NCBI GenBank assembly: GCA_013388635.1
Contig: JACAEX010000082.1
Coordinates: forward strand, 1-38,464
Source of the DNA: Syntrophaceae bacterium
GTDB lineage: Bacteria > Desulfobacterota > BSN033 > UBA1163
Reading direction: 5' to 3'
DNA: 38,464 nucleotides
Position numbers and translations under genes: made by a program. Numbering within the stretch: the stretch's first letter is position 1; every line of letters begins with the position of its first letter. This document shows, piece after piece, positions 10,532 through 27,065 of the stretch. The notes beneath the pieces were generated by a model. The model was not told the origin of the DNA, did no database searches, and saw only the letters and a program-made list of their open reading frames with translations.

Positions 10532-10598
10532 GGCCTGTCCGGTGTCGAGGGGAAACTATCGCATTGATTAAGAGACCAGTTTGCCTTTTGGGGGGATT

Positions 10599-12572
10599 AT
10601 GAAATCGCGATTTAAAATTTTAGTCTTCATCCTTCTCACAGTTTTCGGCCTTCTCTGGCTGACCATCAGTTTTCTTTGGGCTGCGAAGCCACCTGCTGGA
10701 AAAGAAGGGCCTCAAACCGAAGAGGTGGTAAGGCCTCCGGACATCGGGAAAAAAGGGGAAAAGTTTATTATTAAGGGCCGGGAGTATTGCTATGAGTGTA
10801 TCGACAATTCAGAGTGCCTCGGGTGCCACAAGAAGATCAGTGAGAGGAAATTTGCCCAATCCGTTCATGGAGCCAATTCCTGCAACAGTTGCCATTGGGA
10901 TATTACGGATGTGAAGGAACATCTGAAGGCAAAAGGGGGGAGAATTCATACCGAACCCGTAACCTGCCATCGGTGCCATAAGAGGGAAGGTAGAGAACAT
11001 TACGCCAGTGCCCACTTCATCAATGATATCCAATGTAAGGATTGCCATAAGGATATCCATGAGATGACCCGGTGGAAGGGGGACAAGACAAGAGTCATCG
11101 AAAAATGTACCACCTGCCACTCCGAGGATGGTTACTCTGAGAGCGTCCACGGAAAATCGGTCCTCGCTGGCAACGCCGATTCTGCCGCTTGCCATGACTG
11201 TCATGGTCTTCACAAGATCCCCATATTGAAGGGTGAAGAGCCGAAAGTCGTCCAGTTCCGGAAGGAGTTCCATACAGAGGTCTGCCAGAAATGCCATGCC
11301 GATAAGGAGATGATGGAAAGAAACAGAGTCTTCCTTATCGCCACGCAGACCTATTACGAGAGTTACCATGGAAAGGTGGAGCATCTGGGCTACCCGAAAT
11401 TGGTGGCGGGCTGTGCGGACTGTCATGGGTTTCACAGCATTTTGCCGAGGGACGATCCCAAATCTACTATCTCTGATGCCCGTCTTGTCGAAACCTGCGG
11501 AAAGTGCCATCCGGGAGCCAATACCAATTTCGTAATGTGGATCGCCCATGCCACTCATGATGATCCAGAAAGACATCCCGTTTTTTACTGGACCTTTGTG
11601 ATCATGACAGCCCTGCTCGTTTCGGTGTTCAGCATGTTCTGGCTCCATACGATTCTCTGGTGGCGAAGGGACTTCTGGGAAAAAAGGGAATTGAGAGCTC
11701 AAGGGATCTACTTCCCAATTCATCGTGTCAAGCTCGAAGAGGCTGGTCTGATGTATCGACGCTTCAGCCTCTTCGATATCGCCCTTCATTTTACGATGAT
11801 GGTCACCTTCATTGCTCTTGTCCTGACCGGACTGCCCCTGAAATTCTCTCACGCTTCCTGGGCCAAAGGGTTGATGGCTTTATTAGGCGGGGCTGAAATG
11901 GCAGGCTTGATCCACCGAGTTGCGGCGGCGATTACGTTTCTCTATTTTGGAACGGCTCTCGCCTATATCGTCTACTTTCTCTTCTACAAGAGATTACCTG
12001 GAAATCCAAACCCTCTCCAGAAACTTTTTGGGCCCGAATCCCTCTGTCCTCGCTGGAAGGATATTCAGGACATCGTGGGAATGATCCGCTGGTTCTTTAA
12101 TAAAGGCCCCAAACCTCAGTTCGACCGATGGACTTACTGGGAAAAATTCGATTTCTTAGCCGTTTTCTGGGGGATGTTTGCCATCGGGCTCTCCGGTCTG
12201 ATGCTCTGGTTTCAGGAATTTTTCTGCATCTTTCTGCCCGGCTGGGTCATCAATATCGCCCAGATCGTCCATTCAGACGAAGCCCTATTAGCCTCTGGTT
12301 TTATCTTTACCGTCCATTTCTTTAATACCCATTTCAGACCTTCGAAGTTCCCTTTCGACCCGGTCATTTTTACAGGAAGGCTACCTAAATATGAGCTGGT
12401 TGAGGAACGGCCAAAACAGTATGAGAGGCTTCTTGCACAGAAGAGGCTGGAGGTCTATCGAGAAAAATATCCGAGTCCATGGACGGACCTTTTCTCCAAC
12501 GTAATGGGATTTGCCATGCTCGCCATTGGGCTGTTCTGCATCTTCTTGATCGGGTGGGAATTCCTTATGTAA
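10599..12572 (+). CDS. cbcL: CbcL-type nine-heme cytochrome c/b fusion, quinol dehydrogenase
   Basis: Inner-membrane protein predicted to oxidise menaquinol and pass electrons to periplasmic cytochromes. After an N-terminal anchor/signal helix (about 5-25), the periplasmic domain (about 70-305) has nine CXXCH heme sites: CLGCH, CNSCH, CHRCH, CKDCH, CTTCH, CHDCH, CQKCH, CADCH and CGKCH. The C-terminal half (about 335-657) has five to six membrane helices with spaced histidines, as in FdnI/HydC diheme b-type cytochromes. Nine c-hemes fused to such a domain is the architecture of Geobacter CbcL, used with low-potential acceptors. An in-frame TTG at 10581 is less likely than ATG 10599, which has GGGGGG at good spacing. 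It stands alone and converges with the selenocytochrome gene. Confidence 0.88.
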   Translation: MKSRFKILVFILLTVFGLLWLTISFLWAAKPPAGKEGPQTEEVVRPPDIGKKGEKFIIKGREYCYECIDNSECLGCHKKISERKFAQSVHGANSCNSCHWDITDVKEHLKAKGGRIHTEPVTCHRCHKREGREHYASAHFINDIQCKDCHKDIHEMTRWKGDKTRVIEKCTTCHSEDGYSESVHGKSVLAGNADSAACHDCHGLHKIPILKGEEPKVVQFRKEFHTEVCQKCHADKEMMERNRVFLIATQTYYESYHGKVEHLGYPKLVAGCADCHGFHSILPRDDPKSTISDARLVETCGKCHPGANTNFVMWIAHATHDDPERHPVFYWTFVIMTALLVSVFSMFWLHTILWWRRDFWEKRELRAQGIYFPIHRVKLEEAGLMYRRFSLFDIALHFTMMVTFIALVLTGLPLKFSHASWAKGLMALLGGAEMAGLIHRVAAAITFLYFGTALAYIVYFLFYKRLPGNPNPLQKLFGPESLCPRWKDIQDIVGMIRWFFNKGPKPQFDRWTYWEKFDFLAVFWGMFAIGLSGLMLWFQEFFCIFLPGWVINIAQIVHSDEALLASGFIFTVHFFNTHFRPSKFPFDPVIFTGRLPKYELVEERPKQYERLLAQKRLEVYREKYPSPWTDLFSNVMGFAMLAIGLFCIFLIGWEFLM

Positions 12573-12647: not shown

Positions 12648-14231
12648 CTATTTGGAAATCTTACAGCCAATCTTCTCAAGATAGGCAAGGTAGTTAAACG
12701 TGGGGCTTTGATCTTTGGTGTGGCAGTTTCTACATATCCCGAGGGTTACCTTTTTTTGAACTTCTCCCTTTGCAGGATGCCCTTTCCCCGCTCCGTGACA
12801 GGCCTCGCACTGAACCCCTCGCAGGTAGAAAGGGATCTCTTCGACGGTGGCATACTCTCCTATCTTTCCGTAACCGGTAGAATGGCACACAAGACACTCC
12901 TCCTGGGCATATTTAGGCGTGGCGATGATCGTTTGAGAGGCCTTCGCATGCTTGGTTTTCAGCCAATTGTGATAGTTGGCTATGTGGCACCCTTTGCAAG
13001 AAATCGCTCCGACGTAAGGGCTCTCCTTAGGAATCCGGGCGAGCATCTCTTTCTCTGATAAATCTTTTTCGGGTAAGGCTCCCACCGTGGGTCTGTATAA
13101 TTTTGCTGACTCAGCTCGGTAGTTCTCCACTGCCTTGAGGATACAAGGATCGTCCTTCACCGATAGCTGAACGGGAATTGAACGGTGTCTGTAAAAATTC
13201 TTATCCTGGAAGGCTGACAGGCTCCTTTCCAGTTCCTGTCGTTTTGATTCCAAGAACTTCAGCTCTTTGGCTTTCATGGCGTCTTTTTCTCCTGATTTCG
13301 CTATCTCTGATTTGATCTGGATTGACCGCGTGATCAGCCTTTCCAATCTCTTTTCGATCTCATCTCTTTCACTGATAACGACGAATTTGATAGGCCTTTT
13401 CACGTCGACCAAGGAATAATCGATCCGTCCCAGATAGCCCCCCCTTGGTTCCAATCGATAAATAGGGACTTCGTTCACCCTTTCAAGGATTGCCCTTGTG
13501 GCCTCCCCCCCTCCTCCCAGGATCAGATCAATTTCGGGGTTTTGCCTGGCCAATTTCCTATCCTTTGATGCACCAAGTTGTGAGAGGACGACGATGAGAT
13601 CACAATATTCCCTCAACCTCTTGATTACCGCCTTCGATGTGGAAAGGGGCTCTAAAACAGTTACTCCGGCCTCTTGTTCCTGAATGCCGGGGCTGAACTG
13701 GTCATCCATAAGCCCGATAATTCCCACCTTAAGGCCCAGGATCTCTTTGATAACGTGGGGTTTAAAGATCGTCTTTTGATTTCCTTTCTCAATTAGGTTG
13801 GCGGAGATGAACGGAAATTTTGCCTTTTGACTCAGACCGTAGAGGAATTTTAGCCCCATCATCAAATCCTTATCGCCCACATTGACCAGATCATATCCCA
13901 TCTCATTATAGGATTGTATAAGAAGATCAGCTCGAAGGATCGCATCCCTTTTTTTGGTTTCCGTTTGAGGAGGTTTTCGAAACAGGAGGTTTCCGGTGTC
14001 GAGAAGAAGGATCTTTCCCCCCTCTTTTCTAATCTGGGAAATCAGGGTTGATTTCTTGGCAATACCGCCAAGAGGACTTCGAAATCACCCGCAAGGCTCG
14101 ACTTCTCCCATTACATCATTGGTATAGATGATAGTGAACTGGAATTTGGGTACGGCTGAAAAAGAAGTATCATAAAAGAAGAGGACAATCAAAATATCGA
14201 TAAAAATGAAAAGGAATCTTTTAATCTTCAC
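12648..14231 (-). CDS. Probable selenoprotein: 5'-nucleotidase-like domain fused to tetraheme cytochrome c554
   Basis: Exported 527-residue protein if the in-frame TGA at 14085-14087 (codon 49) is read as selenocysteine. The start GTG at 14231 has GGAGG six nt upstream and opens a signal peptide (to about A26). TNDVMGEVEPCG-U-FRSPLGGIAKKSTLI follows, where relatives have Cys in an EPCGC motif. A hairpin starting 11 nt after the TGA matches a bacterial SECIS. The metallophosphatase-like region (about 32-300) lacks the usual metal histidines: NHE is replaced by DKD and GGHSH by GGGGE. A charged coiled segment follows. A cytochrome c554-type domain (about 405-527) has four CXXCH sites: CKGCH, CLVCH, CEACH and CRNCH. 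Without readthrough only a fragment from 13901 would be called. The substrate is unknown, and a redox role is inferred. Confidence 0.8.
14054..14087 (-). promoter_or_regulatory. Candidate bacterial SECIS element with its UGA codon
   Basis: On the minus strand the TGA (14087-14085) is followed by 18 nt and then a loop beginning GGT. The stem TCTTGGC (14073-14067) pairs perfectly with GCCAAGA (14060-14054) around loop GGTATT. The UGA-to-loop distance and the GGU at the start of the apical loop equal those of the E. coli fdhF SECIS, and a guanine among the first two loop bases is the known requirement for SelB. Confidence 0.8.
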
Positions 14232-14338: not shown

Positions 14339-14977
14339 ATGAACATAAAAAGAATAATTCTTCTGGTCATCTGTTGGACCCCCTTCTTCGCTCCAGTAAC
14401 CTTATCGATAGGGGGAGATATAGAGCAGCAGATTATTTTCAAGCAAGAACAACAGGTCAAACAGTGGCGAAAAGAGAGGGATCAATTTTTTAAAACCCAT
14501 GAACGCTCACCCCTCTCTCCCGCCGAGAGAAGGAGTTTCAATGGCTTAAAATATTACCCTTTTAATCCGCAATATATTTTTTATAGTGAGGTCGAGCGAT
14601 TTATCTTCAATATCAATAACCCTAAATATTATGCCACCTTTCTCACCAATAAAGGGACCAACAAACGTTATATTCGATATGGAAGGTTCTATTTCACGAT
14701 GGATGGGAAAAAATATACGATCGAAATTTATAAATCCATTTTGAGTGACACCCTCTTTATCCCTTTCAAAGATAAGACAAATGGAAAAGAGACCTACGAA
14801 GGAGGAAGGTATATCGATTCGGAAATCCTTCCCGGTTACAAAATGATTTTAGATTTCAATATGGCCTATAATCCCTCTTGCGCCTACAATGATAAATTTA
14901 TCTGCGTTCTCCCTCCAAAGGAAAATATCTTGGATATTCCCATCCAGGCCGGCGAAAAAAATTTCCAATCTTATTGA
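14339..14977 (+). CDS. Exported DUF1684 family protein
   Basis: A 212-residue protein with an N-terminal signal peptide (about 1-25). The rest is DUF1684: WRKERDQFFKTHERSPLSP, RRSFNGLKYYPFNP, then YIRYGRFYFTMDGKKYTIEIYK, LFIPFKDKTNGKETYEGGRY and LDFNMAYNPSCAYNDKFIC, with AGEKNF near the end. All conserved family blocks are present, so it is complete. The molecular function of DUF1684 is not known; its strongly conserved DFN-AYNP-C-Y pattern suggests a binding or catalytic site. It faces a second DUF1684 gene that converges on it with a 34-nt gap and no visible terminator between them. The ATG lacks a strong ribosome-binding site. Confidence 0.82.
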   Translation: MNIKRIILLVICWTPFFAPVTLSIGGDIEQQIIFKQEQQVKQWRKERDQFFKTHERSPLSPAERRSFNGLKYYPFNPQYIFYSEVERFIFNINNPKYYATFLTNKGTNKRYIRYGRFYFTMDGKKYTIEIYKSILSDTLFIPFKDKTNGKETYEGGRYIDSEILPGYKMILDFNMAYNPSCAYNDKFICVLPPKENILDIPIQAGEKNFQSY

Positions 14978-15011: not shown

Positions 15012-15659
15012 TTATCGGAAACGTTTCTCCCCGGCACGGATCTCAATGTCCAGCCAGTTTTCTGTCGGAGCGAAGGGGCAAGTATATTTTTCATTATATT
15101 CACAGAAGGGATTATAGGCCCGATTGAAATCGATCAATACCTTTCCTCCTGGCATTGGCTCGATATAGAGATAACGCCCTTCTGGATAGGTCTCCTTTCC
15201 AGAGGTTTTGTCCTTAAACGGTAGGAAGAGATCTCCCCCTCCTAAGGGCCGATAGATTTGAAGGACATATTCTTTCCCTTCCAATTTAAATTTAAATCGC
15301 CCATATTTTACATATTTTTTTTCTCTCCCTTTGTTCGTGGGAAGATTGACATAGAGAGGTTTGGGTTCAGTGGGATATCGTTCAATAGTGCCAACCATGG
15401 CGTATTTAATCTCGATGGGATAATAGGAGAGACCCCTAAACCTTTTCCGATCGGTTTCTTTTAATGGGGAACGAGGATCTTCCTTAAAGAATTTATCCCT
15501 ATTGATGCGAAACGCCTTTAATTTTTCTTCCCTATGATCCCTTGGATCCTCTTCAACCCCTGCGAGAGGGGGCGTCGCCTTTAAGGTGATCAGCAATAGG
15601 CAAAAGTTCAATATTAGGAAAAGAAGCCGTTGGCGTCCTTTGGGAATAATCTTTTTCAT
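15012..15659 (-). CDS. Exported DUF1684 family protein, second paralogue
   Basis: About 215 residues from ATG 15659 (MKKIIPKGRQR), with a signal peptide to about residue 35. The DUF1684 blocks are FRINRDKFFKEDPRSPL, RKRFRGLSYYPIE, YVKYGRFKFKLEGKEYVLQIYR, LFLPFKDKTSGKETYPEGRY and LIDFNRAYNPFCEYNEKYTC. It clearly shares ancestry with the convergent gene at 14339 but is well diverged, so the duplication is not recent or the two came together by transfer. The frame extends to a TTG at 15707, but that start would overlap the -35 of the promoter found at 15679-15707. AGGAAG lies at good spacing before ATG 15659. Confidence 0.83.
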   Translation of the reverse strand: MKKIIPKGRQRLLFLILNFCLLLITLKATPPLAGVEEDPRDHREEKLKAFRINRDKFFKEDPRSPLKETDRKRFRGLSYYPIEIKYAMVGTIERYPTEPKPLYVNLPTNKGREKKYVKYGRFKFKLEGKEYVLQIYRPLGGGDLFLPFKDKTSGKETYPEGRYLYIEPMPGGKVLIDFNRAYNPFCEYNEKYTCPFAPTENWLDIEIRAGEKRFR

Positions 15660-15678
15660 AAGGGGTCTTCCTATAAAA

Positions 15679-15707
15679 AATTTACCAAGGCATTCCTTGG
15701 AAATCAA
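15679..15707 (-). promoter_or_regulatory. Promoter with palindromic operator in its spacer
   Basis: On the minus strand TTGATT (15702-15707), a 17-nt spacer and TAAATT (15679-15684). The spacer is almost wholly a perfect palindrome, CCAAGG-AATG-CCTTGG (15685-15700), placed where a repressor would exclude RNA polymerase. The regulator is unknown. Confidence 0.6.
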
Positions 15708-15888: not shown

Positions 15889-16755
15889 ATGAAAACAGGG
15901 ACAAAGATTGTTCTCATATCGATATTGGCGGTAGTCATAGCTATGTTCCTTTTTATTATCTATCAATTGACAGCTCTTTATCATTATAAATCGGTCGTTC
16001 TTGATCAATTTCCTGTAGAGCCTCCTTCTAAGGAGGTGAAGAGATTTTTTGAAATAGAGAAGGAGAAAAAAGAACAGGCGATTGAGATGGCGAAGAAGTA
16101 TGCAAGAGAGAAAGACGAGCTCTATGGAGATGCCCAAAACCTCGTAGATAAAGTCAAAGGGGATGTGAGGATTATTGGCTGGGATGCGGACAAAGCTATT
16201 CATGTGGGGCAATTATATGATTCTGAAAGATTCGGTGTAAGATTATTGGACGATTTTAGAGCCTCGATGGAGACGATCAAGAGGGGATTGGTCAAACTTA
16301 AGGATTTGGGGTTTCTTATAGAGGGAAGTCCAGCCTCTGAGCTGATCCTTGAAAATGACCCAAAATATTTTGCTTCAAGGATCAAGAGGCTCAAGGAAGA
16401 ATACGTCTCTATTCGATTCTATTTGTTGCCTCGAGGGAAAGGGGTCGTGAAGGCGAAGGAATTATCGGAAGGAGCAAAGAAGGTGGTGGATGAGATCGAT
16501 AAAGAAATAGAGAAGGCTTCGGGCCTGATCAATCATTTTTATCATTACGGTGATTCTCTCTATCTTGTCACTTTTCGTTATCAGACCCAGGACGATAGGG
16601 TCAAGAATAGGACACAAGGTTGGTTCTTTGAGGTCGACCTCGATTCAAAAACAGTGAGAGATGCCAGTTTGGATAAAGAGCTTGGTAAAAAATATCAAAT
16701 CCCTTTGAAGTTAAAATCGGACCAAAAGGAGAACACTTCATGGAAAAAGAAGTGA
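15889..16755 (+). CDS. Membrane-anchored protein of unknown function, first gene of respiratory operon
   Basis: A 288-residue protein of unrecognised family. Residues 7-27 are a single hydrophobic helix (ISILAVVIAMFLFIIYQL), so it is probably anchored with the bulk outside. Charged, helical segments follow, including EVKRFFEIEKEKKEQAIEMA at about 50-70 and another near 195-225. There are no cysteines and no heme or iron-sulfur motifs, so it is not a redox carrier. ATG 15889 has AGGAAGGG upstream. Its last 16 bases overlap the start of the ferredoxin gene, which ties it to the complex. An assembly or accessory subunit role is inferred from position only. Confidence 0.7.
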   Translation: MKTGTKIVLISILAVVIAMFLFIIYQLTALYHYKSVVLDQFPVEPPSKEVKRFFEIEKEKKEQAIEMAKKYAREKDELYGDAQNLVDKVKGDVRIIGWDADKAIHVGQLYDSERFGVRLLDDFRASMETIKRGLVKLKDLGFLIEGSPASELILENDPKYFASRIKRLKEEYVSIRFYLLPRGKGVVKAKELSEGAKKVVDEIDKEIEKASGLINHFYHYGDSLYLVTFRYQTQDDRVKNRTQGWFFEVDLDSKTVRDASLDKELGKKYQIPLKLKSDQKENTSWKKK

Positions 16756-17429
16756 GATGGGGAATGGTGGTTGATCTCAGGCGCTGTGTGGGTTGTCATG
16801 CCTGTCAGGTGGCCTGCAAGGCTGAACACGAAGTCCCTCTGGGGGTATGGAGAATTTGGGTCAAGGTGATTCAAAAAGGGTATTATCCCGAAATGGCGGC
16901 TGTCTCTTTACCCTGGGATTGTCCTTACTGCGAACGGCCTGAAGAGGCAAGATACCCACGAATGCAAACCCTCTTTCTTCCCTGGCTTTGCAACCACTGT
17001 GAACGACCTATCTGCAATACGGTCTGCCCTGTGGGAGCTGCCTATAAACGGAAAGATGGGATCGTCCTGATTGACCCTCACCGCTGTATCGGATGTAACT
17101 ATTGCCGAGCAGCCTGTCCCTACAATGTGAGATTTGCCAACCCGATCACTGGCATGATTCAGAAATGTGATTTTTGCGTTCATCGAGTGGACGCAGGCCT
17201 TCCTCCTGCCTGTGTCGAGGCCTGTCCAACAAATGCCATGGTTTTTGGAAATTTGAGAGATCCAAGTAGCAAAGTCAGCCAGCTGATTTCAAAAGAGAAG
17301 GTGCAGGTACTCAAACAAATTATGGCAACCTTTCCACAGGTCTATTATATCGGCCTGGACAAAGATGTGGCCGATCCGCTGAAGGGATGGGAAAAACACT
17401 TTTATCATAAAGAGTACGAAAGACTATAA
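16740..17429 (+). CDS. Four-cluster ferredoxin subunit (TtrB/PsrB/DmsB type)
   Basis: Electron-transfer subunit of a molybdopterin-type membrane complex, 229 residues. Sixteen cysteines form four [4Fe-4S] sites: C16/19/22/26, C84/87/92/96, C116/119/122/126 and C143/146/158/162, the latter as CDFC with CVEACPT. An additional CPYC pair (C61, C64) lies in the insertion before the second group. There is no signal peptide, as is usual for this family, which is carried across the membrane with its Tat-exported partner. It overlaps the preceding gene by 16 nt, and NrfD follows after 18 nt. The B-C-A gene order matches tetrathionate reductase operons, but the substrate is not proven. Confidence 0.93.
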   Translation: MEKEVRWGMVVDLRRCVGCHACQVACKAEHEVPLGVWRIWVKVIQKGYYPEMAAVSLPWDCPYCERPEEARYPRMQTLFLPWLCNHCERPICNTVCPVGAAYKRKDGIVLIDPHRCIGCNYCRAACPYNVRFANPITGMIQKCDFCVHRVDAGLPPACVEACPTNAMVFGNLRDPSSKVSQLISKEKVQVLKQIMATFPQVYYIGLDKDVADPLKGWEKHFYHKEYERL

Positions 17430-17447
17430 GATGAAAGAGGGAAGATC

Positions 17448-18362
17448 ATGGAAGTGCAAGTCCTCTATAATGTGTTCCATCACGAAGCTGTCAGTCTATT
17501 GATAGCTATCTACTTCCATATCGTCGGGCTCCATGCAGGATGTTCTATTGTATCGATCACCGCTACCTTGCTCGGAAAAACCGAATACAAGCCTGTTGCA
17601 AAGATCGGGGCCATCTTTGTCATCATCCTGTTCTCCATCTCACCGATCTTTCTCCTGACAGATCTCTTCCAGCCCCTCCGCTTCTGGTATCTCTTCCTCC
17701 ATTTCAATCCTACTTCCCCTCTTAGTTGGGGGACTTTCTTTCTCTGTGCTTATCCAACTTTTACTGGTATATACATCTACTTTCTTTTTAAGAACAATGT
17801 CAAATGGTCAAAAATTTTTGGGGTGATCAGCCTTCCCTTTGCTATCAGCGTCCATGGATATACAGGGTTTGTCTTAGGGTTTGCCAAAGCGAGGGTCCTC
17901 TGGAACACTGCGGTCATGCCTTCTTATTTTTTATGCTCCGCAATGATTTCTGGAATGGCCTTTATGCTCATCGTGGCGTTGATTCGTTACAGATTCACCT
18001 ACAAAGATAAAACCGTGGAGGAAAGAGAAAAGGATCTCCATATTATTGATCTTCTTGCCAAGTGGATGGCAGGATTCATGATCCTCAATGTTTTCTATGT
18101 CTTCTCGGATATTACCGTGATGTATTACCATACAGAGGATGCCTTTGAGACGGTTGAACTGGTCCGGCTTGGCAAATTCAGCTTTTTATATATCTGGGTG
18201 GATAATGTACTGGGGAATATTATCCCATCCCTCATCATCATTTTTAAAAAGACCAGGAAGTCTCATCTTTTACTGTTAATTGCTGCCATCTTGGCCTCCA
18301 TTGGCGTTTTTGTTATGAGATACGTGATGGTCTTTGGGGGTCAATACGTCCCGTTAAGTTGA
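17448..18362 (+). CDS. NrfD/PsrC-family membrane subunit
   Basis: Integral membrane quinone-reactive subunit, 304 residues, with eight or nine hydrophobic helices, including SLLIAIYFHIVGLHAG, IGAIFVIILFSISPIFLL, FFLCAYPTFTGIYIYFL and HLLLLIAAILASIGVFVMRY at the C-terminal end. This agrees with NrfD/PsrC/TtrC proteins, which bind quinone and have no cofactor of their own. FQPLRFWYLFLHFNPTSPLSWG is the family's conserved loop. It lies between the ferredoxin and MopB genes with gaps of 18 and 10 nt, so the three should be translated together and form a membrane complex. ATG 17448 has GAGGGAAG upstream. Confidence 0.88.
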   Translation: MEVQVLYNVFHHEAVSLLIAIYFHIVGLHAGCSIVSITATLLGKTEYKPVAKIGAIFVIILFSISPIFLLTDLFQPLRFWYLFLHFNPTSPLSWGTFFLCAYPTFTGIYIYFLFKNNVKWSKIFGVISLPFAISVHGYTGFVLGFAKARVLWNTAVMPSYFLCSAMISGMAFMLIVALIRYRFTYKDKTVEEREKDLHIIDLLAKWMAGFMILNVFYVFSDITVMYYHTEDAFETVELVRLGKFSFLYIWVDNVLGNIIPSLIIIFKKTRKSHLLLLIAAILASIGVFVMRYVMVFGGQYVPLS

Positions 18363-18372
18363 TGGGAGGAGA

Positions 18373-20610
18373 ATGAGGATGAACCGCCGAGAATTTCTTA
18401 AATTATGCCTTGGAGCCCCTCCGGCACTTCTGTTTAACTCTTTTTTTGAGCTCCATGCCTACGCAGAGGCAACGGGAGGAAAACAGATCTCTCGACATAC
18501 GAAGAAACCCCTGAAGGGTATCCCAAGCCTCTGCCAGCTCTGTCCTGCCCGTTGTGGGATCATAGGTTTTTTAGAAGGAGATCAGCTGGTTAAGATTGGG
18601 GGAAATCCGAAACATCCCAACAATCTTGGAAAGTTATGCTCAAGGGGATTAGCCGGTGTGAATATGGCCTACGATCCTGATCGCCTCTCCTCGCCGATGA
18701 TGAGGCGGGGAGAACGAGGGAAAGGACATTGGGAGAGGATTTCATGGGAGAGGGCTTATAGTGAAATGGTCTCAAGGCTAAAAACCATCTATCAGGGGGG
18801 GACAAAGGGAGACTTTGTATTCCACTCAGAGCATGAACCTTATGGTATCCCCCGTCTATTTTTAGATGCTTTTGGGAAGGCTATGATTCTCCATGATGAT
18901 CAGCTTCATTTTAGCAATAGAAACCTTGCCCAATGGCTGACCTGGGGAGAGGAGCGAGGAGTTCCTGATGTGGCGAACAGCCACTACATTCTCAACTTTG
19001 GCTCTAATTTTTATGAAACTCATGAGGATTACACAGGGTTGATCGGGAGGGTGATCGAAGGAAGGCTCACCAAGAAGGCCAAACTAGTTACATTTGATGT
19101 GAGGCTCTCCTATACCGCGGGCAATAGTAATGAGTGGTTTCCTATCACTCCAGGAACCGATGGGATGGTCGCCTTAGCGATGGCCAATGTGATCATTCAA
19201 GATAATCTCTATGATAAGAATTTTATTCAAAGATGGTTCAATATCCCTTTCTCTCAATTGGTCCAATACCTTTCCAACTATACCCCCGAGGCAGCAGAAA
19301 AGGTCAGCGGAATATCCGCAGCAGATATAGAGAGGATTGCTAAAGAATTTGCTATTTCCATGCCAGCCATTGCTATTTCAGGCCCGGGAGTTAGCGGCCA
19401 TTTTAACGGTGTTTATAATGAAAGATGCATCTTCCTTTTAAATGCTATCCTTGGAAACATTGATATTCGAGGAGGGTACTGCTTGCCAAGAACCTACCGC
19501 TTGAGTAGAGGGGACACCACTGCCCTCGACTTAGATAAAGCTCCATTAAATCCTCAGAAGTTTATCTCTCTGGTCAAGCGGAGGAAACTAACGCCTAAGA
19601 TCTATTTTATTAATGAATCTAATCCAGCTTATAGCAACCCGGAAAGTGGTCTGACGTCTGAGGTATTAAAAGATGAAAAACTGATTCCTTACCTGGTGGT
19701 GGCAGATAGCTATATGACTGAAACCGCCATGCTTGCTGACATGGTTCTTCCTGTAGCCTCTTACTTAGAGAGGGGAGGAATCGATTCATCTCCCTCCCTC
19801 GATTTGATTCCATTTGTTGCCCTCCAACAACCCATCCTCCGGCCTTATGCCAAATCTGTTCCCATCGACGATATTTGTATCGAACTCAGTCAACGAATCG
19901 GCAGCGGCATCCGGAGAAGTTTCAGATTTAACTCTACAGAGGAATATATTAAGAAGGTCATCTCCAGTATCCCTAAACTCGAAAAGGTAGGAGGATGGCC
20001 GTATTTAAAGGAGCACGGAGTCTGGTTTGATAAAGATGAAAAACCCAGAATGAGAGGGTATGAATCCAGGGGCTTTAAAACTCCTTCAGGAAAGATTGAA
20101 ATCTATTCAGAGAGATTGAGAAAGAAGGGATTTCAGCCTCTCCCCATTTATGAGCCGATTCCAGGGCATGGAGATTTAAAAGGAAAGTTTGTCCTGGTTA
20201 CCTATGAACCAAATGTTATGGGCCCCAAAACAGCCAATTTTAAATGGCTTGCTGAAATTAAGCACCATAATTTTATCTGGATCAATCGGGATGTGGCTAA
20301 AATTCTTCATATCGAAGAAGGGGATCGTGTCAAAATTACTGCTAAAACAGGAACATTTGTCAGAGAGGTCCGATTTACTTTTGGCATCCATCCCAGAGTG
20401 GTGGCGATTGAAAGAAATTTAGGTCATTGGGGGTATGGCCATATCGCTCAAGCAAAAAGAATTAAGAGCAAGGACCCCAATACCTATTTGGTCTGGTGGG
20501 AAAAAGAGGGCAATGGAGTCTCTCCCAATCAAGTCATTCCGGGTGAATCCGACCCCATCGGGGGAGGAGAAGCCTGGAACGATACGATCGTTACCATTTC
20601 GAAAATATAA
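18373..20610 (+). CDS. Tat-exported molybdopterin oxidoreductase-family subunit
   Basis: Catalytic-type subunit of the complex, 745 residues, close in size to PsrA/PhsA. The Tat signal is NRREFLKLCLGA. The [4Fe-4S] motif is C54, C57, C61 and C89 (CQLCPARC, then KLCSRG). Molybdopterin dinucleotide-binding blocks follow, such as YILNFGSN, TFDVRLSYTAGNSNEWFPITPGTDG and the C-terminal dinucleotide-binding domain from about 600. Where PsrA-type enzymes have the Mo-ligating Cys, an ungapped by-eye alignment puts H179 in LHDDQLHFSNRN and no Cys, Ser or Asp is evident. It may use an unusual ligand or, like QrcB and ActB, have lost the cofactor. Substrate unassigned; candidates are sulfur oxyanions, arsenic oxyanions or a pure quinone/cytochrome oxidoreductase role. 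Confidence 0.88.
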   Translation: MRMNRREFLKLCLGAPPALLFNSFFELHAYAEATGGKQISRHTKKPLKGIPSLCQLCPARCGIIGFLEGDQLVKIGGNPKHPNNLGKLCSRGLAGVNMAYDPDRLSSPMMRRGERGKGHWERISWERAYSEMVSRLKTIYQGGTKGDFVFHSEHEPYGIPRLFLDAFGKAMILHDDQLHFSNRNLAQWLTWGEERGVPDVANSHYILNFGSNFYETHEDYTGLIGRVIEGRLTKKAKLVTFDVRLSYTAGNSNEWFPITPGTDGMVALAMANVIIQDNLYDKNFIQRWFNIPFSQLVQYLSNYTPEAAEKVSGISAADIERIAKEFAISMPAIAISGPGVSGHFNGVYNERCIFLLNAILGNIDIRGGYCLPRTYRLSRGDTTALDLDKAPLNPQKFISLVKRRKLTPKIYFINESNPAYSNPESGLTSEVLKDEKLIPYLVVADSYMTETAMLADMVLPVASYLERGGIDSSPSLDLIPFVALQQPILRPYAKSVPIDDICIELSQRIGSGIRRSFRFNSTEEYIKKVISSIPKLEKVGGWPYLKEHGVWFDKDEKPRMRGYESRGFKTPSGKIEIYSERLRKKGFQPLPIYEPIPGHGDLKGKFVLVTYEPNVMGPKTANFKWLAEIKHHNFIWINRDVAKILHIEEGDRVKITAKTGTFVREVRFTFGIHPRVVAIERNLGHWGYGHIAQAKRIKSKDPNTYLVWWEKEGNGVSPNQVIPGESDPIGGGEAWNDTIVTISKI

Positions 20611-20623
20611 AGGAAGGAAGCCA

Positions 20624-21202
20624 ATGAAAGGGTTGAGCAAGATAAAAGGGTTAATGAGGAAGCTCAGTATCCAAAACATGAAGATCTTATTGAAATCCAA
20701 ATGGGTGATCTTTGGTGTAGGCCCTCTCTTTACCCTTATTGGAGCGGTGTTAGTCATTTGGTTGGGACATTTGCTGACAACCCATCCTGTCATCTGCCTC
20801 TCATGTCATGCAAGGCAGACCAGCCTCTCCATGTGGTCACCCTCTCAGATCCATCCTGATCGTGTCACGTGTGTGAATTGCCATGCCAAACCCGGAAAAA
20901 TTTTCCCACGCGACTTTTTTGCCGATGAAAGGGTAAATGATAATTGCCTCATCTGTCACAACCAGATGGCTTCAAAAGAGATGGAAGAGGCTCACCATAT
21001 GAAGATTGCACATAAGATTCATGTGGAGGAGTCGAAGTTGATGTGTATTGATTGCCACAGAAATATTGTCCATGAAAAGACAGAAGTTGGAACAAACCGT
21101 CCTCGAAGGTTGACATGCATTGAGTGTCACGAAGAAGCGATCAAGGGTGGACCTGAGTCTTGTATGAAATGCCATACGAAGATCCCCGTCACCTCTTCTT
21201 AA
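20624..21202 (+). CDS. NapC/NirT-like six-heme membrane-anchored cytochrome c
   Basis: A 192-residue cytochrome with one N-terminal membrane helix (about 27-50) followed by HPVICLSCH, in the position typical of the NapC/NirT family of quinol-oxidising anchors. There are six CXXCH sites: CLSCH, CVNCH, CLICH, CIDCH, CIECH and CMKCH. The frame extends upstream inside the MopB gene, but ATG 20624, 13 nt after the MopB stop and preceded by AAGGAAGGAAG, is the true start. It should link the MopB complex to the large multiheme cytochrome encoded next. Confidence 0.9.
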   Translation: MKGLSKIKGLMRKLSIQNMKILLKSKWVIFGVGPLFTLIGAVLVIWLGHLLTTHPVICLSCHARQTSLSMWSPSQIHPDRVTCVNCHAKPGKIFPRDFFADERVNDNCLICHNQMASKEMEEAHHMKIAHKIHVEESKLMCIDCHRNIVHEKTEVGTNRPRRLTCIECHEEAIKGGPESCMKCHTKIPVTSS

Positions 21203-21217
21203 TTTAAACAAGCCATT

Positions 21218-23320
21218 ATGAAAAACTATTTGGATTTCTTATTGAATTTCCTTAAAAAGGTTGGATGGGTTTTCCTAAAGAAAAGGAAGGCTATCTTGGG
21301 CCTTCTTTTTTTAATCTTATTTGTATTTGTGGGAATCTTTAAATACTCAGAAAGCCCTTCCTTCTGTGGTCTATGTCACAATATGAAGGAGTATGTAGAG
21401 TCTTGGAGAACCTCCTCTCATCATCAGGTCTCCTGCCTGAATTGCCACCGGAAACCTGGACTGGGAAGTCATCTTAAAGGGAAGTGGGTGGATTTCCAAC
21501 TCGCTGTGACCTATCTTCTGATCGGCAAAGGGATTAAGAAAATCCATTATGAAGTGGATGATGGGAATTGTTTGCAAAAGGGATGTCACCAAAGGAAAGA
21601 CATCAATGGCGATATGATATTTAAAAATGTAAGCTTTCCCCATGGAAAACATCTCGGGGAGTTAAGAAGAGGAATGAGACTTCGCTGCACCTCCTGCCAT
21701 GCTCAGCTCGTTCAAGGGTTGCACCTCACCGTTCATGAGACGAATTGTTTCATCTGTCATTTTTACCAAGCAGGCCAAAAGGGTGAAGAAGAATGTATTT
21801 CTTGTGCGATAGGAAGCTGCTCCTCCTGCCACATTGAGCCTAAGGGAGATATTAAGGTCAAGGGTTGGACCTTCAATCATCGGAAGTATATTGCCAGAGG
21901 AATTGCCTGTGAAAGATGCCATGTCCATATCTTCCAAGGAGATGGCCATGTACCAGAGGGGAAATGTCTTCAGTGTCATCGTGAACCTGAAATCCTCAGG
22001 GGTAAGTTCACATCTCAATTTATGCATAAGAATCATGTGACGGATCATAAAATTGAATGCTCAATTTGCCATACTTCCATTCGGCATGAAATGGTGCCGA
22101 TGATCACCCCTGTCCAATCCACCACTACTTGCCATAAGTGTCATAGCACAGAAATTCATTTAGGACCAAGAGAATTATACCGTGGAAGTGGAGGAATTGG
22201 AGTCCCTGATTCCCCAAGCCTGATGTTTACGACGAATATCGACTGTGTGGCTTGCCACCGAAAGGAAGAGGAAAGTCAGGCTGCACTTCACACCAGCCGA
22301 TATACGGAAAAGGCACTTGGAGAGGCCTGTGTGGACTGCCATGGGGAGGGGTTTGATGATACCTTGAAACATTGGAAGACCCTCCTTTCAAGAGCGGAGA
22401 ATGAGACGAACCAGAGAATTTTTCATGTTCAAAAGGCCTTATACGATCTTGAGACCACGAGAGGAGGACGTCCTGACTTTAAGAGGGCCCAAAATCTTAT
22501 TAACGAAGCTCGTCATAACTATAGTTTTGTGCTTCTTGGTAAGGGGGTTCACAATATTGAATATACCTTTAAACTCCTCAATGCAGCCAACAATAAGGCC
22601 GAACAGGCTCTGGCCACTCTCAATAAAGGTTATAAGCCTCGGGAGGTTAAATTCCAGATGACCTGCACCTCTCTCTGCCATGTAGGGATGGAGAGGCGTA
22701 CCGTTGCATTCAATGATATTCGTTTTTCCCACGAGACCCATGTGGTGGGTAGCGGCCTGAAGTGTTCAGAATGTCATTCCTCTCGTGAGGAGCATGGGAA
22801 GACGTTTCAGAAAAATTGTGGACAGTGCCATCATGGCAGGAGAATCACAAAGGTCAAATGTGAAGACTGCCATATCTCTGTGAAAAGATTAATCCAAGGA
22901 AAGGGAGGGGTCGGGGTCCAAGAAAAACCAAGCAATAAGTTGGATGTGGTTGAATGTGTCGATTGCCATCGTGGGGTGACGGTCAAAAAAAAGGATACAT
23001 TCGATATGATTAAGAAACGTTGTATCGAATGTCATGACCAGAGCTATGGAGAGATGCTGGGTCGATGGAAAGTGGCCTCTGAGGAGTTATTGAAAAAAGT
23101 AGCCCCAAAGATCGATAAGGTCAGGGAGGAGATCAGGCGGATTGAGCTCCGTAGAGGACATACTTTTGTTTATCGGAAATTGTTTGGAGAGGCGGAATTT
23201 AATTACAATTTAGTCAAAAGGGGAAACGGGGTTCATAATTTGGAGTATACAGAAGAGTTATTAGAATTCGCCAACAATCGGCTGGATGAGGCGATCAAAC
23301 AGCTGGCCAAGAAGAAGTAG
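21218..23320 (+). CDS. Membrane-anchored multiheme cytochrome c, up to 18 hemes
   Basis: A 700-residue periplasmic cytochrome with one N-terminal helix (about 25-43). There are sixteen CXXCH sites, plus one CX4CH (CLQKGCH near 118) and one CX3CH (CTSLCH near 482) that may also bind heme. The C-terminal part has an internal duplication: residues about 325-463 and 563-696 share GG-GV, CV-CHR, a CXXCH, a long amphipathic helical block and the ending GVHN-EYT--LL--ANN. That helical ending resembles the region after the last heme in NrfA/HAO-like cytochromes. It is the last gene of the operon, 15 nt after the six-heme cytochrome. An electron conduit role is inferred; no catalytic heme motif (CXXCK) is seen. 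Confidence 0.9.
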   Translation: MKNYLDFLLNFLKKVGWVFLKKRKAILGLLFLILFVFVGIFKYSESPSFCGLCHNMKEYVESWRTSSHHQVSCLNCHRKPGLGSHLKGKWVDFQLAVTYLLIGKGIKKIHYEVDDGNCLQKGCHQRKDINGDMIFKNVSFPHGKHLGELRRGMRLRCTSCHAQLVQGLHLTVHETNCFICHFYQAGQKGEEECISCAIGSCSSCHIEPKGDIKVKGWTFNHRKYIARGIACERCHVHIFQGDGHVPEGKCLQCHREPEILRGKFTSQFMHKNHVTDHKIECSICHTSIRHEMVPMITPVQSTTTCHKCHSTEIHLGPRELYRGSGGIGVPDSPSLMFTTNIDCVACHRKEEESQAALHTSRYTEKALGEACVDCHGEGFDDTLKHWKTLLSRAENETNQRIFHVQKALYDLETTRGGRPDFKRAQNLINEARHNYSFVLLGKGVHNIEYTFKLLNAANNKAEQALATLNKGYKPREVKFQMTCTSLCHVGMERRTVAFNDIRFSHETHVVGSGLKCSECHSSREEHGKTFQKNCGQCHHGRRITKVKCEDCHISVKRLIQGKGGVGVQEKPSNKLDVVECVDCHRGVTVKKKDTFDMIKKRCIECHDQSYGEMLGRWKVASEELLKKVAPKIDKVREEIRRIELRRGHTFVYRKLFGEAEFNYNLVKRGNGVHNLEYTEELLEFANNRLDEAIKQLAKKK

Positions 23321-24411: not shown

Positions 24412-26601
24412 TCAGGCCTTCTTCAGGGCCTCAAGGACAGTACTGGGGCTGAGAGGGATACGCCTGATCCGAACGCCCGTCGCATTGAAGAATGCATTTG
24501 CCACTGCAGGCGCTGCAGGAGGTACGCCCACCTCCCCGATGCCACCGATCTTTTCACTGCTTTTGACAATGTGAACCTCGATTTCAGGAACCTCGCTCAT
24601 CCGCATTACTTTATAATCATCAAAATTGGCCGATTTGACGCCACCGTTGGCAAACCTGACCTCCTCCTTCAGTGCTGTGCTAAGAGATATGATGACCCCT
24701 CCTTCTATCTGAGCCACCAGGGGATCTGGGTTCACCACTGGTCCACAATCCACAGCCACCACAATCCGGTGGACCTTGATCGTACCCTCTTTTTTATTCA
24801 CCGAAATTTCTGCCACCTCGGCCACCCAGCTTCCGAAGCACGCATGCTGGGCAATTCCCCGGCCTTCGCCTTTTGGAATGGGTTTTCCCCAACCGGCCTT
24901 TTCAGCGGCAATTTCAAGCACCCGGCGAGCCCGCATATTGTTCTTCAAGTTCTGGAGGCGAAACTCAAGGGGATCCTTTCCTGCTGCGTGGGCTAGCTCG
25001 TCGATGAAGGACTCAATCACAAAGGCATTGGGACCGTTCTGAACCGAACGCCAAGGTGCGACAGGGGCTGGCAGGCCGGAGATAAGGAATTCTATTGAGA
25101 GGTTTGGTATCTCATACTGAATTCGGTTATTCCACATTGTCGACCCCGGAGCATCCGCAAGCCCCCACAGGCAATAGAAATCGATCCCACCTTTTATTGC
25201 AGCAGGAGCGATGTCTTTCAAAATGGACGGGCTGACCACCTTGTGAGACCATCCGACCAACTGCCCCTGGCTGTCGAGCCCGGCCTCGATCCGGTGAGAG
25301 GCAGGGGCACGAAACGCATCGTATCTGATGTCTTCTTCTCTTGTCCACAGAACCTTCACCGGTTTTTCAACCGCCTTTGAAATGGCGACCGCCTCGGCCA
25401 CGAAATCCGGTCTTGCCCTTCTACCTAAGCCGCACCCTAAGAATGTGGTGTTGATATTGATCTTTTCCGGCGGCAGTCCCGATACATTGGAAGCGACCAT
25501 CAGCGCACCTGTCTGAGTTTGAGTGGGCGCCCATACCTCGCATCGGTCACTGCGCACATAAGCCGTGCAGTTTATAGGTTCCATCAGCGCATGGGCGACA
25601 TAAGGGACGAAGTAGGTGGCTTCGATCTTTTTGCTCGCCTCACCAATCACTTTTTTTGCGTCGCCCGTGTTGACCACGGAGGCCATTGGTTTGTTCAGGT
25701 CCTCTAAGAGAGATTTCTCAATAAATTCATTATCCATCTCTGGAAGGACCCCCTTGTCCCACTTCACTTTAAGGGCATCCCGGCCTTTCAAAGCCGCATC
25801 GATAGACGACGCACAGACGGCGATCCCCTGAGGGATCTGGACAACCTTTTTCACCCCTTCGATCTGTTCCGCTGCTTTCTGATCGAACGAAAGGGGTTTT
25901 GCCCCATAAGCAGGTGGCCGTGCAACGACAGCATAATGTAAATCCTTAAGCGTAACATCAAGACCAAACACTGCCTTACCATTCACCTTTGCCGGTACAT
26001 CTACACGGGGCATGGGTTTGCCGATATATCTGAACTCTTCCTCCTTCTTCAGCGGAGGGTCTTTTGGAACTTCCAGTTTGGCTGCTTTTAAGCAGAGTTT
26101 GCCGTAAGTGAGGGTCCGGCCGCTCTTTGCGTGTCTCACCGTATTCATGAAGGCCTTGCATTCTTCCTCGGGAACCTTCCAGGTCTCCGCTGCGGCTTTG
26201 ATGAGCATTGCCCGACCGGCGGCACCTACTTTTCGCAAGGGTTCATAAAACCCTCTCACGCTTGCGCTCGCTACAGTAATTTGGGCAGGTAAGAGTGGAT
26301 TTTTATATTCTGGCCTTGCTCCGCCCTGGCGGATCCGAATCTGTTTCCAGTCTGCTTCTAACTCATCTGCGATGATCATGGAATGCGCGGTCAGGACGCC
26401 CTGTCCCATCTCGGAATTGCCAATGAATATCGTGACCTTGTTGTCGGAGGTGATCTTAAACCATGCGTAGGGGCTGAAACTGTCCATTTCAGACGCATTG
26501 AGAAGCCGATGGCCAAAAGGGGTGGCAGACACTCCGATGGTTAAGCCAGCGGCTGCCAGGGAGCTCTTTAAAAAAGCACGTCTCGTGATCGATGTTCTCA
26601 T
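24412..26601 (-). CDS. Molybdenum hydroxylase large subunit, periplasmic (isoquinoline 1-oxidoreductase beta-like)
   Basis: Xanthine dehydrogenase/aldehyde oxidase-family catalytic subunit, 729 residues. The Tat signal TRRAFLKSSLAAAGL starts a few residues in. Molybdopterin-binding blocks include NSEMGQGV near the start and ATYFVPYVAHALMEPINCTA, GCGLGRRARPDF and APWRSVQNGPNAFVIES later. The catalytic glutamate lies in GIGEVGVPP near residue 690. Tat export, and fusion of the two halves as in IorB, indicate a periplasmic enzyme that hydroxylates an aldehyde or N-heterocycle and gives electrons to a cytochrome. The substrate is not determinable. ATG 26601 follows AGGAGGTG and overlaps the small-subunit stop by 4 nt (ATGA). 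The longer frame to 26682 is not needed. Confidence 0.91.
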   Translation of the reverse strand: MRTSITRRAFLKSSLAAAGLTIGVSATPFGHRLLNASEMDSFSPYAWFKITSDNKVTIFIGNSEMGQGVLTAHSMIIADELEADWKQIRIRQGGARPEYKNPLLPAQITVASASVRGFYEPLRKVGAAGRAMLIKAAAETWKVPEEECKAFMNTVRHAKSGRTLTYGKLCLKAAKLEVPKDPPLKKEEEFRYIGKPMPRVDVPAKVNGKAVFGLDVTLKDLHYAVVARPPAYGAKPLSFDQKAAEQIEGVKKVVQIPQGIAVCASSIDAALKGRDALKVKWDKGVLPEMDNEFIEKSLLEDLNKPMASVVNTGDAKKVIGEASKKIEATYFVPYVAHALMEPINCTAYVRSDRCEVWAPTQTQTGALMVASNVSGLPPEKININTTFLGCGLGRRARPDFVAEAVAISKAVEKPVKVLWTREEDIRYDAFRAPASHRIEAGLDSQGQLVGWSHKVVSPSILKDIAPAAIKGGIDFYCLWGLADAPGSTMWNNRIQYEIPNLSIEFLISGLPAPVAPWRSVQNGPNAFVIESFIDELAHAAGKDPLEFRLQNLKNNMRARRVLEIAAEKAGWGKPIPKGEGRGIAQHACFGSWVAEVAEISVNKKEGTIKVHRIVVAVDCGPVVNPDPLVAQIEGGVIISLSTALKEEVRFANGGVKSANFDDYKVMRMSEVPEIEVHIVKSSEKIGGIGEVGVPPAAPAVANAFFNATGVRIRRIPLSPSTVLEALKKA

Positions 26602-27065
26602 GATTTCTTCACCTCCTTTCTCATCATCTGAACCGCGGTCCTGATGCCCCGTTTGATTCGCGGATAGGTTCCGCACCGGCAAATCACGTCATCCATCTTG
26701 GCGATGACCTGCTCCGCACTGGGAGTGGGCTTTTCTGAGAGGAGGGCTGCTACCTGCATGATCACCCCGGGCTGACAGTAGCCGCACTGAACAACCTGTT
26801 CCTTGATCCAGGCCTTTTTGACAGGGTGATTCTCCGGGAGCCCTTCGATGGTGGTGATCTTCTTTCGCTGGACCTCGCCAACGGTAATGGTGCAGGATCT
26901 CACTGCTTTTCCATCCACATGGACCGTACAGGCCCCGCATTCTCCGATCCCGCAACTGTACTTGGTGCCCTTGAGGTTGAGGTAATCCCTGAGAACCCAG
27001 AGCAAGGGCACATCTTTGGAAACATCCACCTGAAAGACCTTGCCATTGACATTCAGAGAAATCAT
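26598..27065 (-). CDS. Molybdenum hydroxylase (2Fe-2S) small subunit
   Basis: A 155-residue iron-sulfur subunit of the hydroxylase, IorA/CoxS type. The plant-ferredoxin-like [2Fe-2S] site uses C38, C43, C46 and C58 (YSCGIGECGAC, then C). The second cluster in the helical domain uses C94, C97, C129 and C131 (QCGYCQPG, then CRCGTYPRI). It passes electrons from the molybdenum site to an external acceptor. No own signal peptide is present; it would cross the membrane with the Tat-signal-bearing large subunit. No FAD subunit is encoded nearby, consistent with a cytochrome or other periplasmic acceptor. ATG 27065 has AAAGGAGGGG upstream, and the large-subunit start overlaps its stop. Confidence 0.93.
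   Translation of the reverse strand: MISLNVNGKVFQVDVSKDVPLLWVLRDYLNLKGTKYSCGIGECGACTVHVDGKAVRSCTITVGEVQRKKITTIEGLPENHPVKKAWIKEQVVQCGYCQPGVIMQVAALLSEKPTPSAEQVIAKMDDVICRCGTYPRIKRGIRTAVQMMRKEVKKS

Follow-up and report, generated by a model that had tools for sequence, protein, structure and literature searches.

A predicted UshA-like selenoprotein with a tetraheme cytochrome domain in a Syntrophaceae genome

Gene layout, reading frame and hairpin

The window, that is, the whole stretch of DNA analysed here, is a 38,464-nucleotide contig from a Syntrophaceae bacterium. Its minus strand carries a gene (14231-12648) that extends from a GTG start at 14231-14229 to a TAG stop at 12650-12648 and includes an in-frame TGA. 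The gene and its parts are listed below.

12648..14231, minus strand: predicted UshA-like selenoprotein gene; 527 aa with a single in-frame TGA (Sec49); match to NF041198
14238..14242, minus strand: ribosome-binding site GGAGG, read from the sequence, with 6-nt spacing to the GTG
14154..14231, minus strand: signal-peptide-like N-terminus, about residues 1-26; hydrophobic leader with a cleavage site placed by eye
14085..14087, minus strand: TGA codon 49, putative Sec in C47-G48-U49, from the sequence and the family column
14054..14073, minus strand: bacterial-type SECIS hairpin with a 7-bp stem and the loop GGTATT; the loop starts 18 nt past the TGA
13370..14150, minus strand: UshA/5'-nucleotidase-like (COG0737) domain, approximate limits; metal-site residues mostly replaced
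12690..13010, minus strand: tetraheme c554-type domain, approximate limits; PF13435 E 2.5e-12, match to 1bvb, four CXXCH motifs

The leader region encodes a hydrophobic stretch and then TIIYTNDVMGEVEPCG, which runs up to the TGA. Past this codon the frame continues from EPCG into FRSPLGGIAKK and meets no further stop until the TAG. The minus-strand sequence thus bears out the outline drawn in the earlier note, namely a GTG with GGAGG, a signal-peptide-like start, EPCG-TGA and a same-frame continuation. An ordinary gene caller would truncate the gene at this TGA. The four CXXCH motifs lie at residues 412, 446, 475 and 500, and the protein scores 48 bits against PF13435 (cytochrome c554), above the Pfam gathering cut-off of 20.8.

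Were the TGA a true stop, the locus would encode a short exported peptide and a separate 417-residue ORF that starts at ATG 13901. Such an ORF does exist, but the frame between the TGA and 13901 encodes conserved protein (LGGLARK, LLLD-G) that is part of the UshA fold. Attachment of c-type haem needs a signal peptide, and a product made from 13901 would have none. We regard a true stop as scarcely credible and treat the gene as one reading frame.

The hairpin is composed of TCTTGGC (14073-14067), the loop GGTATT (14066-14061) and GCCAAGA (14060-14054). This perfect stem, with a GGT-initial loop 18 nt past the TGA, had been noticed from the letters alone and holds up at 14073-14054. A 40-nt fold of the region reaches -11.5 kcal/mol (z -2.76), and 3 of 200 shuffles fold equally well. 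Published criteria for bacterial SECIS elements are a loop of 3-9 nt, a stem of 4-16 bp, a G within loop positions 1-2, a spacing of 16-37 nt and an MFE of at most -7.5 (PMC13188914). The hairpin lies within all of these limits, with a loop of 6 nt, a stem of 7 bp, GG at the loop start, a spacing of 18 nt and the folding energy given above. An Rfam scan of the window at gathering thresholds returned zero matches. In the window, 9 of the 1523 TGA triplets are followed at an allowed distance by a perfect stem at least 7 bp long, a chance of about 0.6%, so that the hairpin taken by itself is unremarkable. The weight of the case lies with the homologues. The SECIS claim also leans on relatives because a synonymous-codon control on the window gene alone gave just p = 0.047.

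Selenocysteine in the family and in the genome

Read through the TGA, the protein matches the curated NCBIfam model NF041198, "UshA-like (seleno)protein" (UshA_like_PCGU), with 484.2 bits against a cut-off of 275. The alignment joins residues 13-514 of 527 to model positions 5-518 of 519, haem part included, and the PCG(U/C) motif of the model is present as EPCG-TGA. This selenoprotein was tabulated as "UshA-like, COG0737, CxU" in 2008 (PMC2398784), again in 2022 (PMC9312934) and in 2026, the last time with the accession NF041198 (PMC13188914). The gene is a further member of a catalogued family and not a new kind of selenoprotein. The earlier note knew of no description of the selenocysteine form, and this claim is wrong because NF041198 models the whole fusion and selenoproteome lists have included it since 2008. 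On the sequence evidence set out here, we are close to certain that the window gene is a genuine selenoprotein of the known UshA-like CxU family. It shares the PCGU motif and C-terminal haem domain of NF041198, and nothing defining differs. The window copy is set apart from the database entry by its convergent nonaheme/cytochrome b neighbour.

NF049981 (UshA-like (seleno)protein family 2) is related but scores 61.3 bits, below its cut-off of 140, and has a CxxU motif in contrast to the CxU of the window gene (PMC13188914). No NF049981 copies above the cut-off were found in the genome. The ExtKL multiheme selenoprotein (NF040886) is likewise a c-type cytochrome with Sec that figures in the list of bacterial selenoproteins (PMC13188914), but it represents a different family and is absent from the NCBIfam matches of the window protein. 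A search of phage records gave matches that were all below 60% identity and covered about half of the query. Literature text searches returned no functional study of the UshA-like selenoprotein family.

The earlier note expected cysteine in relatives at the TGA column and looked to this column as the place where an unrelated residue could overturn its reading. Of 96 non-duplicate relatives, 81 have Sec in column 49, 14 have Cys and one has Arg, which leaves the reading standing. C47 is accompanied by Sec or Cys at position 49 in 86 of these sequences. Across the phylum, 58 of 297 genomes have a match above the NF041198 cut-off, and nearly all of the full-length matches listed contain exactly one TGA. 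One tetraheme homologue (L116/L031, 64% identical) has Ser-Gly-Arg(CGA) in place of Cys-Gly-Sec, and in L116 the SECIS hairpin is gone as well. This is an apparent natural loss of Sec along with its partner Cys.

The hairpin overlaps the conserved peptide LGGLARK, so that the protein could explain its conservation, and codon choice was therefore tested. The GGU at the start of the loop comes from the second Gly codon. Of 80 Sec genes, 70 use GGT there, where their own codon usage predicts 15.2; of 14 Cys genes, 4 do so. The mean stem measures 5.16 bp in Sec genes versus 1.60 +/- 0.18 bp in synonymous shuffles; for Cys genes the values are 1.29 and 1.58 bp, and the hairpin is missing from most Cys forms. 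The loop begins 18 nt past the TGA in 67 of the 80 Sec genes. Covariation in 35 gap-free Sec-gene sequences amounts to 21 double-changed cells, a number reached by 0 of 500 shuffles, although this count is not a strict probability because the sequences are related. The double changes in the stem are U-A to G-C, C-G to U-A and G-C to U-A. Synonymous shuffles of single sequences are weak, with just 16% of Sec genes at p below 0.05 by MFE, and for this reason stem length and codon choice were compared family-wide instead.

The same genome encodes selA, selB, selD and selC (81.3 bits), so that all four genes proposed as a check on the reading are present. The selD gene (G000:C44:47699-48625) carries an in-frame TGA, and SelD itself is thus probably a selenoprotein. 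Family column, SECIS constraint and sel genes together argue strongly for the insertion of Sec at codon 49, as the earlier note had inferred.

The TGA could instead stem from a mistake in sequencing or assembly, or from a genuine nonsense mutation that arose in a Cys gene (TGC/TGT). The assembly consists of 106 contigs, of which the window is one, and Cys forms do occur (14/96), as such an origin would have it. However, TGA at the same codon recurs in dozens of independent genomes from many families, which effectively refutes an error, and both the codon-level SECIS constraint in Sec genes only and the complete Sec machinery in the genome speak against it. We give it almost no credence and retain the selenoprotein reading.

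Two further UshA-like copies occur in the genome. One (contig C20, 26232-27293, minus strand; L010/L050) reads PCPG-TGA, has one TGA and is without a haem domain. It lies about 2 kb from selA and about 6 kb from selC. The other (L011, C52:19217-19480 and downstream) reads PCPT-TGA and has an intact-looking SECIS, and it is split over several frames; this copy is a pseudogene or an assembly error.

Fold and the lost metal site

An AlphaFold2 model built from 52 window- and locus-derived sequences has a pLDDT of 89.7, and the stretch with the CGU loop is less confident (mean about 72). Foldseek returns UshA and CD73 5'-nucleotidases (1hp1, E 9.2e-23). Escherichia coli UshA (1ush, 1hp1) shares the fold of the N-terminal domain, and sequence homology is detectable. 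UshA has a di-metal site and neither a haem domain nor Sec, whereas in the window protein other residues take the place of most ligands and of the catalytic dyad. We take the di-metal ligands and catalytic dyad of UshA to be D41, H43, D84, N116, H117, D120, H217 and H252. Alignment to solved relatives places D, M, N, D, K, M, Q and G at these positions in the window protein. N116, H117 and D120 are retained in 1, 1 and 0 of 95 family members, and the family maximum is 4 of the 6 compared UshA ligands. Cys47-Gly48-Sec49 is predicted to come just after the first strand, at a place that holds metal ligands in UshA. The alignments show that these ligands have been lost next to a conserved Cys-Sec pair.

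The earlier note had described a fusion of a 5'-nucleotidase-like protein with a cytochrome. The UshA-like fold and the tetraheme domain stand. The name 5'-nucleotidase suits the fold but probably not the activity, since the majority of the metal and catalytic residues are absent. We consider it very probable that phosphoesterase activity has been lost.

A selenoprotein could nevertheless be an active metal-dependent nucleotidase or phosphoesterase in which the Cys-Sec pair serves as a regulatory or structural switch. The clear UshA homology and fold and the members that retain up to 4 of 6 compared metal ligands are in keeping with this. Against it stand M, N, D, K, M and Q in the window protein at H43, D84, N116, H117, D120 and H217, the near absence of N116, H117 and D120 from the family, and the fused tetraheme domain, which points to electron transfer. 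We judge an active enzyme unlikely; in place of a nucleotidase, the most likely identity is that of a redox protein which is exported and wired to haems. The Cys-Sec pair is not universal, as Ser-Gly-Arg in L116/L031 shows, and this counts against the reading.

Two known proteins resemble parts of the fusion. SoxB thiosulfohydrolase (TIGR04486; 2wdc) has a related metallophosphatase-like domain and acts in sulfur metabolism, but the window protein scores 61.5 bits, far below the cut-off of 550. SoxB is a di-manganese enzyme without a Cys-Sec pair. Cytochrome c554 (1bvb; PF13435) is homologous to the C-terminal tetraheme domain, which in the window gene is fused behind the UshA-like Sec domain.

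Gene neighbourhood and possible role

The selenoprotein gene lies between a multiheme cytochrome gene and two DUF1684 genes.

10581..12572, plus strand: convergent neighbour encoding nine CXXCH motifs and a membrane portion that resembles cytochrome b561; most close relatives keep it next to the gene
14339..14977, plus strand: second DUF1684 gene, divergent; Pfam PF07920 E 1.3e-39
15012..15707, minus strand: DUF1684-type gene, upstream; its product shares 43% identity with the PF07920 protein encoded at 14339-14977; also upstream in close relatives

The nonaheme/cytochrome b gene adjoins the selenoprotein gene in eight of nine close relatives (L109-L115, L030) at 79-85% identity and is convergent there too. 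It also occurs in another, more distant family of the class (64% identity). The exception is L116, which has lost Cys and Sec: the 4 kb downstream of its gene contain no match to the neighbour. Gene neighbourhood was rejected as a functional clue for the whole family: distant members adjoin aldehyde ferredoxin oxidoreductases, a UvrD helicase and other genes. Their neighbours are unrelated, and the idea of an electron partner is therefore limited to this class.

The window carries two opposite-facing DUF1684 genes; close relatives mostly have one, upstream and on the same strand as the selenoprotein gene. In L125, L126, L127 and L109 the DUF1684 gene is directly followed by that of a 16-haem cytochrome. 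In the window, the DUF1684 genes are separated from a 16-CXXCH protein (21218-23320) by an Fe-S/NrfD/molybdopterin oxidoreductase operon (16740-20610). Across 16740-23320, the Fe-S, NrfD-type and molybdopterin oxidoreductase genes precede those for a 6-haem and a 16-haem protein; together they constitute a respiratory oxidoreductase cluster that was not seen at the corresponding place in close relatives. Further along (24412-26682, minus strand) is a gene resembling the large subunit of xanthine dehydrogenase/hydroxybenzoyl-CoA reductase, which falls under all family cut-offs.

We propose that SelB, charged Sec-tRNA and the hairpin right after the UGA would decode codon 49 as Sec; failing Sec, the product would end after 48 residues. 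The leader suggests that the protein is exported. It would then comprise a UshA-fold domain with Cys47-Gly48-Sec49 and a C-terminal tetraheme c domain, and the Cys/Sec pair, possibly as a selenenylsulfide, could use the haems to exchange electrons with a cytochrome b/c partner in the membrane. The likeliest candidate for this partner in the class is the product of the convergent nonaheme/cytochrome b gene, an assignment that we put forward tentatively. A redox role of the UshA-like tetraheme protein itself appears probable.

It is quite possible, though we favour it less firmly than a redox role as such, that the family as a whole has abandoned a di-metal hydrolase centre and that the same loop now forms a Cys-x-Sec redox centre wired to haems. 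The protein would then be a selenium oxidoreductase linked to haems; its substrates might be compounds of sulfur or selenium, and the adjacent cytochrome b/c gene would feed it.

Raw sequence by itself can thus be enough to recognise a true selenoprotein. The UshA-like family to which this one is assigned is widespread in the phylum. Ligand loss, a retained Cys-Sec pair and attached haems together provide a concrete, testable redox hypothesis for the family.
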